Assembly: GCA_030625685.1 (NCBI GenBank)
Contig: DAOUQJ010000012.1
Location: 1-64,000 of the forward strand
Reading direction: 5' to 3'
DNA length: 64,000 bases
From: Oscillospiraceae bacterium
GTDB taxonomy: Bacteria > Bacillota > Clostridia > Oscillospirales > Oscillospiraceae
In this document: piece by piece, positions 5,478-54,993 of the stretch
Numbering within the stretch: the stretch's first letter is position 1
Layout: each line of letters begins with the position of its first letter
The notes under the pieces: generated by a model
Told to the model about the DNA's origin: nothing
The model's input: only the letters and a program-made list of their open reading frames with translations
The model's database searches: none
Translations under genes and position numbers: made by a program

Positions 5478-6305
5478 TTAGATTTCGTTTCTTTTAGTAG
5501 CTCCATCATCTACTGCTCTTTGCACACGATGCATCATTCCTTTGCCTTCCTCTAAGCGCACTTGTCTTGCTTCCCATTTAGCTTCAAATTCTTCCTGTGA
5601 GATTCCATTTTCTTGCGCGATTTCCCACATGACTTCTTTCATCATTTCATGTCTTTCTTCACGCTCTAACTCTCTGTATTCTTCAATCGTCATGCCAAGT
5701 TCTTCCGCTTCTTGTACTCTTTGCTCATGCAAATAAGTTTTATACTCTTCCATTGTCATTCCGAGTTCTTCTGCTTCACTTTCTATTTGAGCGCGTTGTT
5801 CTTCTCTAATTTCTGACATAGCCTGTTTCATTTGGTCACGTGCTTCCTCAATTTGCGCTCTGTATTCTTCAACAGTCAGACCAAGTTCTGCAGCTTTACT
5901 TTCCATTTGCTCTTGTCTTTCCGCTTTGAATTCTTCGACTGTCAAGCCAAGTTCTTCTGCTTTACTTTCAATGTTTTCTCGAATTTCCCCATTGCGTTTT
6001 TCGCCATTAACAAGCATATGGTTCATTTTTTCTTTCATTTGCTCTTGTCTCTGTGCTTGAAATTCCTCAACCGTCATGCCTAGTTCAGCTGCTTTAGCTT
6101 CAATTTCTTCCTGCATTTTTGCTTTTACTTCATCCACTGTGATGCCAAGTTCATCCGCTTTTTGTTCAATTCTTTGCATTTGTTCTATGCCGAAGTTTCG
6201 CTCACGAGTTGCAGTGTCCACATTGTTTGCTGTTGTTGCAGAAGCAGAAATAGCAGTTGCTCCTACCAATACACATGTCATTGCCAATACGCCTAGTTTT
6301 TTCAT
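5478..6305 (-). CDS. Secreted repeat protein with ~6 'ELG(M/L/I)TxEE(F/Y)' helical repeats
   Basis: Signal peptide MKKLGVLAMTCVLVGATAISASA; repeated ExKAxELGxTVEEFxAxRQEQM units; RBS AAAGGAG upstream. Confidence 0.85.
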   Translation of the reverse strand: MKKLGVLAMTCVLVGATAISASATTANNVDTATRERNFGIEQMQRIEQKADELGITVDEVKAKMQEEIEAKAAELGMTVEEFQAQRQEQMKEKMNHMLVNGEKRNGEIRENIESKAEELGLTVEEFKAERQEQMESKAAELGLTVEEYRAQIEEARDQMKQAMSEIREEQRAQIESEAEELGMTMEEYKTYLHEQRVQEAEELGMTIEEYRELEREERHEMMKEVMWEIAQENGISQEEFEAKWEARQVRLEEGKGMMHRVQRAVDDGATKRNEI

Positions 6306-6471: not shown

Positions 6472-7173
6472 TTATTTCATTTTGATATCTTTGAGTTTAG
6501 TATAAAGCACTTTATATTCTTTTTCATTTGCAATTTCCAAAAGCTTATCATCTGGATTGACGCAGATGGGCATTCCCACCAAATCTAAAATTGGCATGTC
6601 GTAATAACTATCTGCATAAGCAACACTGCTTTGAAAATTAATATCATCGAAGTGCTCTTTGAAACGAATCGCTTTCATTTCATTTTGAATGATTTCCATA
6701 TCTACCGAAAAATCAAGCATCTCTTTGCTATCCACTGTCTTATAACTCAGTTCGCTTCCAATCACAAAATGGATACCAATTTCTTTTATCATATATTCTA
6801 GGAGCTCTCTATAGTTTCCAGAAAGTAGCACTGTATAATAGCCCTTGCTTTTCACTTTTTCCAATTCACGCAAAATCTCTTCATCCAATATACGCGCAAA
6901 TTCTTTCCCTGCATAAGAAAAAAAAGAGTCAATTGTCTCTCTATCATAAGATTTTAATGTATAAGTTAAATCATCAAACGCCTCTTTGCTAAATTGTTCT
7001 TTCGAATAACTCGATATCAACTTATATTTGACTATCTTCATTGCGATTTTAAAATATGCCTTTCGCAATATTCTAGGTTCGTTGAAAAACTCCTTGTGAT
7101 ACTGTAAAAATTTCGGTCCAAAGTCATGTGGCAACAGTGTCCCATTAAAATCGAATATTGCTACTTTTTGCAT
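6472..7173 (-). CDS. HAD-family hydrolase (phosphoserine phosphatase-like, HAD-IB)
   Basis: FDFNGTLL, LLSGNYRELLEYM, YADSYYDMPIL motifs. Confidence 0.85.
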   Translation of the reverse strand: MQKVAIFDFNGTLLPHDFGPKFLQYHKEFFNEPRILRKAYFKIAMKIVKYKLISSYSKEQFSKEAFDDLTYTLKSYDRETIDSFFSYAGKEFARILDEEILRELEKVKSKGYYTVLLSGNYRELLEYMIKEIGIHFVIGSELSYKTVDSKEMLDFSVDMEIIQNEMKAIRFKEHFDDINFQSSVAYADSYYDMPILDLVGMPICVNPDDKLLEIANEKEYKVLYTKLKDIKMK

Positions 7174-7267: not shown

Positions 7268-8191
7268 TTACACAATTTGTTCTGCAGTTTGTCTATCTGT
7301 CAAAAGAATATCAATATATCCACTTTTGAGCGTGGCTTGTATGGCTTTTGCTTTGGCATCTCCAATTGCGACTGCAATGGTTTTTGAATTCTTCAGTTTT
7401 TCGAGTGGTAATCCTATCACACGATTGGAGTGTTTCGAATACACTATATCTCCATCCTTATTGATATAAGAAGCTCCACAAGCCGCAACAACACCTAGAA
7501 ATTTGAGTTCTTTCAAATCTTGTTCCGTCAACAAATTTTCTGTGTCGTAATTTATCAACGCTTCAATATTTGTGATACCCACAAAACTGACTTGGGACTG
7601 TTCAGCTTTTTTGAGTATCTCAGAAATGGATGGTTCTTTTTTGAGACCATCTGCCGTTTCAGCCGACTGCACAAAAGCTGGTGCATTGAGCTGAAAATAT
7701 TGCCCATTGGTCTTTTTGGCAAAGTTTACAGCAATTTGATTGGCGTGCCAATCTGCGCCATTAGTGCCCAATCCACCGATCATTGGAATAAACGACAATC
7801 CTCTTTTATCTATCAGATTAATCCTCTTGACTACCTCTCCTATTGAATACCCTGTCATAATTCCAACGGAAGCATTTTCTGGAATATAGGCATTGATATG
7901 CGAGGCAACACTCGCATAAAAATCAACATTCCCATTAAAGCTGTTATCAAATACAACAACATCAGAAATCTGATATTGCCTCAAAACTTCATCTTCCAAA
8001 TCCCCTTCATATGGATGCGGATTTTTCACTTGAATAGTGACAATATTATGGTCTTTAGCATAAGCCAATATACGACTAACCTGCGGACGTGAAATAAGAA
8101 GCCGCTTTGATATCTCCTTTTGGCTCAATCGTTCAATATAATATAATTTACATACCTTTACGATGATTCTCTGATTATCAATGATAGACAT
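7268..8191 (-). CDS. SorC/DeoR-type sugar-binding transcriptional regulator
   Basis: HTH ERLSQKEISKRLLISRPQVSRILAYAK; sugar-binding domain SVGIMTGYSIGEVV, VAACGASYINKDGDIV. Confidence 0.9.
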   Translation of the reverse strand: MSIIDNQRIIVKVCKLYYIERLSQKEISKRLLISRPQVSRILAYAKDHNIVTIQVKNPHPYEGDLEDEVLRQYQISDVVVFDNSFNGNVDFYASVASHINAYIPENASVGIMTGYSIGEVVKRINLIDKRGLSFIPMIGGLGTNGADWHANQIAVNFAKKTNGQYFQLNAPAFVQSAETADGLKKEPSISEILKKAEQSQVSFVGITNIEALINYDTENLLTEQDLKELKFLGVVAACGASYINKDGDIVYSKHSNRVIGLPLEKLKNSKTIAVAIGDAKAKAIQATLKSGYIDILLTDRQTAEQIV

Positions 8192-8284
8192 AAAAACCTC
8201 TCAATGTGTGCATCATATTTCTTATAACACTATAATACCATAATTTTCTTTTTTACGCAAAAATGTAAACTTTGAGCTTCATTC

Positions 8285-8334
8285 GCGCTAGAATACCCCC
8301 ATAATTGATATCAATTATGGGGGTATTCTAGCGC
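8285..8334. repeat. 50-bp perfect palindrome
   Basis: GCGCTAGAATACCCCCATAATTGATATCAATTATGGGGGTATTCTAGCGC is exactly its own reverse complement. Confidence 0.98.
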
Positions 8335-8350
8335 ATAAACAAATTCATAT

Positions 8351-10000
8351 TCATTGATCATCTGTTTTCTTTTTACTTTTGTCATAAAACGTATATCCAC
8401 CAGAAAGGTTATACACTTCTTTAAATCCACGACCTAATAAAATATTCTGTGCCGCATTGCCAGTACCGCCTTTATTGCAATAAATAACTGTTTTCTTTTC
8501 TGAATCAAAAGAATCTAATTTCTTGCGTAAGTTTTCATGTGGCACATTCACCGCACAGTCAATGCAGCCCTTTTCGGCATGATCTTCTGGGCTTCTTGCA
8601 TCGATTACTTGAAGAGAGTCATCCTGTTTGTCCAGTTCTTCTGCTCGGAGTAGTTTTCTGCCCTTATTCACAGCATTTTCTAACACCATACCAGCATAGT
8701 GAACAGGATCTTTCGCAGTTGAAAATGGCGGCGCATAGGATAAATCCAAATAAAATACGTCATCAATTTTAGCTTCATAGGTAATGAGCGTTGCAAAGAC
8801 ATCAATTCGTTTATCTACGCCAATAGTGCCAATGATTTGAGCACCAAGCAATCTCATACTTTTTTTATCTGCCACGACCTTAATGGCCATGTCTTCTCCA
8901 TGAAAATACTCTGTTTTGTTAGGGCGAATGAGATGAGCCACTTGAATATCATATCCTAGTTCCAACGCCTCACGCTCAGATAATCCCGTCGAAGCAATGG
9001 TATATTCAAATAGTTTAAAAATACCTGAACCTACGTTTCCACGATAGCGTAATGTACCACCAGTGAGTGCATCACCAGCTATTCGACCCGTTTTGTTCGC
9101 GGTAGAGCCCAACGGTGTATAAACAGGTCGTCCATCAATGGAGGAAAAGGTTTCAATACAGTCACCACACGCATAAATATCGGGAAGATTTGTCTGCATC
9201 GCAGGGTTGACTTTAATTGCACCTTTTAGCCCTAACTCTATCCCAATGGATTTGGCAAGGTCTGTATTGGGTTTTATGCCAGTCGCTAGTAGGACCAAAT
9301 CAGCATCTAATTTACTGCCATCACTGAGTAGCACATGTGATTTCTCAATTTTTTGAATGCTGGTTTCATTAAGAATACGAATCCCTTTTTGACAGATTAA
9401 ATTTTCCAAAAATGCTGCCATATCTTCATCTAAATTAGGCGTGATTTTCTTTGCAAGTTCCACTACCGTTACATCAATACCACGATTCACAAAGTTCTCT
9501 AATACTTCAAATCCAATGGCACCTGTACCCGCAATGACAGCTGTTTTCGGTTTTTTACCTTCAATAAATGATCTAATATTTCTCGCATCTTGCACATTTC
9601 TCAAAGAAAAGACGTGCTCTGCATCTTTTCCTTCAATGTTGGGGATAAACGACTTGGCACCCGTTGCAATAACAAGCTTATCATAGGTATCCGAAAATAC
9701 CTCACCTGTCATCATATTCTGTACCTTTAATGCTTTTTCCTCAGGAAGAATCTCAAGCACTTCATGTCTAATTTTAACATCAATATTATATTTTCGTTTG
9801 AACATTGCAGCATCTCGAGGCGTTATTTGTGTAATATCGTTGATTTCTCCTCCGATATAATATGGTAATCCACACCCAGCATATGAAATATCTTGATCTT
9901 TTTCATATATCACAATTTCTGCTTGTTCATTATTTCTTCGTGCTTTGGTTGCCGCTGATGTGCCTGCAGCAACTGCACCAATGACCAAAATTCTCATCAA
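8351..10000 (-). CDS. CoA-disulfide reductase-like FAD/NAD(P) oxidoreductase with C-terminal rhodanese domain
   Basis: GAVAAGTSAATKARR, single redox Cys YAGCGLPYY, GTGAIGFE, YACGDC; rhodanese loop VIYCNKGGTG. Confidence 0.92.
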   Translation of the reverse strand: MMRILVIGAVAAGTSAATKARRNNEQAEIVIYEKDQDISYAGCGLPYYIGGEINDITQITPRDAAMFKRKYNIDVKIRHEVLEILPEEKALKVQNMMTGEVFSDTYDKLVIATGAKSFIPNIEGKDAEHVFSLRNVQDARNIRSFIEGKKPKTAVIAGTGAIGFEVLENFVNRGIDVTVVELAKKITPNLDEDMAAFLENLICQKGIRILNETSIQKIEKSHVLLSDGSKLDADLVLLATGIKPNTDLAKSIGIELGLKGAIKVNPAMQTNLPDIYACGDCIETFSSIDGRPVYTPLGSTANKTGRIAGDALTGGTLRYRGNVGSGIFKLFEYTIASTGLSEREALELGYDIQVAHLIRPNKTEYFHGEDMAIKVVADKKSMRLLGAQIIGTIGVDKRIDVFATLITYEAKIDDVFYLDLSYAPPFSTAKDPVHYAGMVLENAVNKGRKLLRAEELDKQDDSLQVIDARSPEDHAEKGCIDCAVNVPHENLRKKLDSFDSEKKTVIYCNKGGTGNAAQNILLGRGFKEVYNLSGGYTFYDKSKKKTDDQ

Positions 10001-10173: not shown

Positions 10174-10203
10174 AACAAGGATGCAAACATTTGCATCCTT
10201 GTT
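10174..10203 (-). terminator. Terminator at the end of the FASII/ACC operon
   Basis: AACAAGGATGCAAA-CA-TTTGCATCCTTGTT. Confidence 0.75.
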
Positions 10204-54698: not shown

Positions 54699-54743
54699 TT
54701 TATTTACTTCCTACCTATATTTTTTTCATATTTCTTTATCCTG

Positions 54744-54787
54744 AAGACCACAGCCCACTCATTAAAGAATGAGTGGGCTGTGGTCTT
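54744..54787. terminator. Intrinsic terminator-like hairpin
   Basis: Perfect 20-bp stem AAGACCACAGCCCACTCATT-AAAG-AATGAGTGGGCTGTGGTCTT. Confidence 0.8.
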
Positions 54788-54993
54788 CTTATTACTTTGG
54801 GTATAAAAGCTCTTTTTCAAGGTTCACACATGCTTTATCATATTCAAAAGTTTACTTGTACAAATTCTATTTTGCTCTAGTATTCATTCTTATTTTTACT
54901 GATTTGATGTGAAAAATTAAGCAGTATTGGTTACTTACTTGAAGAACCAACACAGCTTAAAACATTATACTTATTGAAACATATCAACACAAT

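Follow-up and report, generated by a model that had tools for sequence, protein, structure and literature searches.

The 50-bp perfect palindrome at positions 8285-8334 of the window (the whole 64-kb stretch of DNA that was analysed) is real, non-random and unusual in its genome, and is best filed as an exceptionally long U-tract-less 3'-UTR hairpin, a gene-end signal of an unusual, already known kind. We consider it probable that the element acts at the RNA level, in the 3'-UTR of the CoA-disulfide reductase (CoADR) transcript, where it would make or protect the 3' end. The palindrome and the features around it are the following.

8285-8334, no strand: perfect palindrome of 50 bp without a loop; its RNA would form a 23-bp stem closed by a 4-nt loop
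8285-8309 and 8310-8334: palindrome arms, 25 nt each, 100% complementary, 0 nt spacer
8351-10000, minus strand: CoADR with a C-terminal rhodanese domain (Pyr_redox_2, Pyr_redox_dim, Rhodanese)
8230-8258, minus strand: probable promoter of sorC, TTGCGT-N17-TATTAT plus an extended -10 (TGGTATTAT), named for its resemblance to the consensus
7268-8191, minus strand: SorC-family regulator, SorC/DeoR-like, with a short HTH and a sugar-binding domain (PF04198, 3.6e-52)
6472-7173, minus strand: HAD-IB family phosphatase (PF12710, 1.7e-19)
10174-10203, minus strand: canonical terminator ending the upstream operon, with a 14-bp stem and a T-rich tail (TTTCTATTTG)

A self-complementarity check of the letters confirmed the perfect symmetry described in an earlier, sequence-only reading of this DNA, the stretch being its own reverse complement at 50 of 50 bases. 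The chance of 25 consecutive pairs is about 4e-15 per centre (p about 0.27 per random pair at about 37% GC), and a chance origin is excluded. The stem alone was calculated to fold with -41.2 kcal/mol and a 131-nt minus-strand fragment containing it with -50.4 kcal/mol (z = -8.7), a stability reached by none of 200 shuffled sequences. The stem begins with GCGC, and neither flank carries a U-tract, as had been claimed: at most two T per eight bases were counted at the stem end or in the tail on both strands. The palindrome is missing from the terminator-scan listing. An Rfam search gave sub-threshold scores only, none above the gathering score and mostly to eukaryotic microRNA precursors, an identity that was set aside because any perfect hairpin yields such matches. 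The perfect symmetry over 50 bp also raised the idea of a telomere-resolvase-type site; the neighbourhood offers nothing pointing there.

The gene ahead of the palindrome has its best NCBIfam match in TIGR03385, CoA-disulfide reductase (4.8e-134, 447 bits, below the cut-off of 579), and its likely start is an ATG, 3 nt downstream of the TTG start in the ORF list. Its stop codon lies 16 nt from the palindrome (gap 8335-8350), the distance given earlier. CoADR and sorC are co-oriented, both on the minus strand, with the regulator starting 93 nt from the palindrome; the best NCBIfam match of its product is DeoR (NF053881, 1.4e-45, below cut-off). The promoter-like TTGCGT-N17-TATTAT (8258-8230), read directly, is situated between the palindrome and the SorC-type gene, which agrees by position with the earlier placement of the likely promoter nearer to the gene. 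To judge from the spacing, the HAD-IB phosphatase is probably co-transcribed with sorC. Further along, at 5478-6305, a secreted-looking protein with repeated 'KAxELGxTVEExxAxxxE' units and without a clear family is encoded. Apart from the palindrome, no strong hairpin lies in the interval from the CoADR stop to the sorC promoter.

Transcription of the minus strand would present the palindrome as a 3'-UTR hairpin of the CoADR mRNA, with about 23 bp of perfect double-stranded RNA and a 4-nt loop. Folded in vivo, such a hairpin could block 3'-5' exonucleases, and/or be cut by RNase III, which is encoded in the genome, so parting the CoADR RNA from read-through RNA; it might perhaps also be a weak stop of the U-tract-less, 'I-shaped' kind. 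The sorC promoter would then be shielded from CoADR transcription, and the sorC unit would rely on its own promoter just beyond. This reading is supported by the position 16 nt past a stop codon, by a co-oriented next gene with its own probable promoter and by the neighbouring upstream operon, which ends in a canonical terminator; from this position we infer termination and processing. The palindrome hairpin may not terminate at all, since canonical termination needs a U-tract, which nearly all other long hairpins of the genome have. Against the 3'-UTR reading stands the perfect symmetry of the DNA, which exceeds what an RNA hairpin read from one strand needs, as G-U pairs would suffice.

To place the palindrome among the hairpins of its own genome, a survey took in 1.55 Mb out of 2.11 Mb (74%) and allowed up to two mismatches, an 'effective arm' being the arm length minus three per mismatch. 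Hairpins numbered 267 when the effective arm had to reach 13 bp, 108 at a minimum of 16 bp and 14 at a minimum of 22 bp. Among the 108, 78 were without mismatch and 104 were rich in T at the stem end or in the tail, on one strand or both; 47 of these 104 lay between convergent genes. The T-rich-ended hairpins look like bidirectional intrinsic terminators. That so many comparable hairpins are T-rich-ended supports the earlier view that the palindrome is not a standard intrinsic terminator. The earlier reading had also set it far above the other hairpins of the window in length and exactness. This holds for the 64-kb window, where the next-longest perfect hairpin (54743-54788) has 21-bp arms, and does not carry over to the genome, where the palindrome is one of the top five by length among the perfect hairpins of 1.55 Mb (25-27-bp arms). 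The 21-bp-arm hairpin (GAAGACCACAGCCCACTCATT) has a weakly T-rich tail (CTTCTTATTAC). Long perfect stems are frequent in this genome, with arms of 20-27 bp and several without a loop (46 bp at L120:18343, 48 bp at L194:15181); the other loopless perfect palindromes measure 40-48 bp. Counting only effective arms of 18 bp or more, the survey gave 35 hairpins per Mb. A 0.56-Mb set of loci with the same GC content, most of them from Bacillota, had 12.5 per Mb, and two relatives that lack Rho and are higher in GC had 10 and 17.5 per Mb. Very long, perfect hairpins that look like bidirectional terminators thus abound in this genome, and their abundance in a genus without Rho makes a clearer general finding than the single palindrome does.

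Only four of the 108 long hairpins in the 1.55 Mb lacked any T-rich end.

8285-8334 of the window: 25-bp arms, no loop
L114:18741-18802: 26-bp perfect arms, loop of 10
L144:2115-2170: 25-bp perfect arms, loop of 6, 60% GC
L138:16896-16942: 22 bp with 2 mismatches, loop of 3, effective arm 16

The first three all rank in the top five for length among the perfect hairpins, and no sequence kinship was detected among the four. A weaker fifth (L199:13927; 18 bp, one mismatch, effective arm 15) lies inside a predicted 78-aa ORF. All four are situated directly past stop codons, at 16 nt (palindrome), 6 nt (L114), 20 nt (L144) and 23 nt (L138); a 54-bp element placed at random in intergenic DNA has a facing stop at 23 nt or less in 11.3% of cases, and the resulting figure of about 2e-4 for four out of four is indicative only, as the cut-off was picked post hoc, the ORF calls were mechanical and the cases number four. 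It is by this position that, among the options named in the sequence-only reading, a processing element or non-canonical stop comes out best supported. The genes ahead of the three other hairpins carry the Pfam domains DUF6514, CDP-OH_P_transf and YjdM/PhnA. The L114 hairpin, 6 nt past the DUF6514 gene, lies upstream of a co-oriented large ORF. The L144 hairpin, on a 3-kb contig, is 20 nt from each of two convergent genes, directly behind the T-run of the ordinary terminator that serves the plus-strand gene; directly past the minus-strand gene no other hairpin was seen. Since an ordinary terminator follows the L138 hairpin and another precedes that of L144 (on the other strand for L144), these two need not be terminators themselves.

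In E. coli, 3' ends at U-tract-less hairpins are attributed to Rho termination downstream and subsequent trimming back (PMC13289151). We rejected this origin for the CoADR 3' end because no Rho was detected, a rejection that holds unless the draft misses the gene. The search with PF07497 gave zero matches in the 99% complete genome, and the top TIGR00767 score, 79.5 bits, fell far short of the cut-off of 509, such sub-cut-off matches being, as we infer, other ATPases. The TIGR00767 cut-off was reached by none of 16 genomes of the genus (this one and 15 others), nor by one genome of the order (G044), while the controls, E. coli, B. subtilis and others, passed it. Judging by these profiles, the bacterium seems to be without Rho.

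Further copies of the arm, which had been proposed as a check, were searched for in the genome and its relatives, and bar one isolated, non-palindromic match none that is meaningful was found. With a 20-nt query and up to three mismatches, each arm matched once in its own genome, at the palindrome itself; with up to five mismatches in 1.55 Mb only the palindrome was recovered, and with up to seven the number of places equalled that of shuffled controls. The inner 18-mer, at up to three mismatches, was found at itself and one other place, below the shuffled controls. Among about 400 (401) genomes of the family, up to two mismatches gave the isolated match, with two mismatches, in G088, where it stands before an ORF; a reversed control pattern likewise yielded one match. 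Viral contigs and plasmids gave zero matches and phages a single chance-level one (E = 4). Because the arm is single-copy, the palindrome belongs to no REP or MITE family in its genome, and the earlier option of a REP- or MITE-like element is left unsupported. The locus DNA and the SorC protein had no counterpart in the genus genomes, and no homologue of the SorC protein above 1e-40 was found in 247 genomes of the order. The CoADR copies in the order sample are paralogues of 35-43% identity. The window CoADR is 61-66% identical to proteins of distant Clostridia and only about 42% to the genus copies, a likeness that suggests horizontal acquisition of this copy; the neighbourhood, too, looks acquired. 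The genome holds two CoADR-rhodanese genes, 40% identical (window:8351-10000 and G000:C12:16659-18293). In two Propionispira species an identical 52-nt hairpin with 23-bp arms (L081:2551-2602 and L083:2551-2602) lies about 400 bp upstream of CoADR, directly before GAGGTG, a possible ribosome-binding site.

Several other explanations were weighed against the 3'-UTR hairpin, and as an operator, a mobile element or an artefact the palindrome is less well explained. The main functional rival is a DNA operator, for example for the adjacent SorC/DeoR-type tetramer, controlling sorC-HAD or CoADR. The neighbouring protein is of the SorC/DeoR type, the sorC -35 box is about 27 bp further downstream than the palindrome, and known operators of the family are similar in length (CggR 45 bp, DeoR 39 bp; PMC11229326), although these are not perfect from end to end and are sited across or after promoters. 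The centre, ATTGA-TA-TCAAT, loosely resembles the DeoR half-operator ATTGAACAAAATTTCAAT, yet two nucleotides separate ATTGA from TCAAT where DeoR-like spacing has eight. Moreover, the inner 18-mer does not recur at further promoters, and the three comparable hairpins lie past stop codons, not at promoters. With a second site absent, the earlier suggestion of an operator for a dimer or tetramer found no positive support, and we regard this reading as rather improbable. We give a similarly low standing, as an unlikely explanation, to a DNA-level product in which intrastrand template switching (quasi-palindrome correction) perfected the symmetry with no selected role. The large share of mismatch-free hairpins (78 of 108) is in keeping with a genome that may homogenise inverted repeats at the DNA level; however, template switching makes no prediction of placement directly past stop codons, and with 104 of 108 hairpins terminator-like, selection clearly acts on the class.

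It is very improbable that the palindrome is a mobile element, either REP/MITE-like or formed by two joined, inverted insertion-sequence ends. The horizontally acquired look of the neighbourhood (the CoADR identities and the sorC gene without a strong homologue in the order sample) would suit such an origin, but the arm was not found elsewhere in the genome, in viral contigs or in plasmids and had no meaningful family or phage match, a direct target repeat is absent at the palindrome borders, and no sequence relationship links the palindrome to the other tract-less hairpins. An assembly artefact is hardly credible: the genome is a draft of 35 contigs, but ordinary sequencing reads are long compared with 50 bp, and the same genome has three more hairpins of this sort at other places.

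The 3'-UTR hairpin reading can be extended, with low probability, to a small second class of gene ends in the Rho-less lineage, in which very long (about 25 bp), perfect U-tract-less hairpins directly past stop codons would end transcription, or set 3' ends through RNase III cleavage, without a U-tract. If true, the Rho-less genome would be a natural test of the dispensability of the U-tract, a point disputed for the mycobacterial 'I-shaped' terminators; on the dispute whether such hairpins terminate, PMC12288462 lists Czyz et al. 2014 among its references. If not true, the palindrome is another strong 3'-UTR hairpin.

Perfect inverted repeats past stop codons are widespread in bacteria (PMC13155455). 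Compared with a canonical intrinsic terminator, the palindrome has the GC-containing hairpin downstream of a gene (16 nt past the stop, -41 kcal/mol) and lacks the U-tract. The bidirectional terminators of its own genome resemble it in lying past genes and in their perfect, often loopless arms of 20-27 bp; they are, however, A-rich at the stem start and T-rich at the stem end or tail, and the palindrome is neither. With REP and MITE palindromes it shares an intergenic position and a size of 40-60 bp, whereas it is single-copy and without a genome family. At trimmed 3' ends of the E. coli type, a GC-rich hairpin without a U-tract serves as a barrier to 3' exonucleases (PMC13289151), a likeness that extends to the missing U-tract and ends at the primary stop, made in E. 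coli by Rho, which was not detected here. The mycobacterial 'I-shaped' intrinsic terminators have a strong hairpin at most 50 nt from the stop and no U-tail (PMC12288462), with stems of typically about 4-14 bp (PMC8355165). The palindrome is like them in forming a hairpin within about 50 nt of the stop without a U-tract, termination here being a possibility, and unlike them in its stem of about 23-25 bp and in its low-GC, Rho-less genome in which most hairpins are T-rich-ended.
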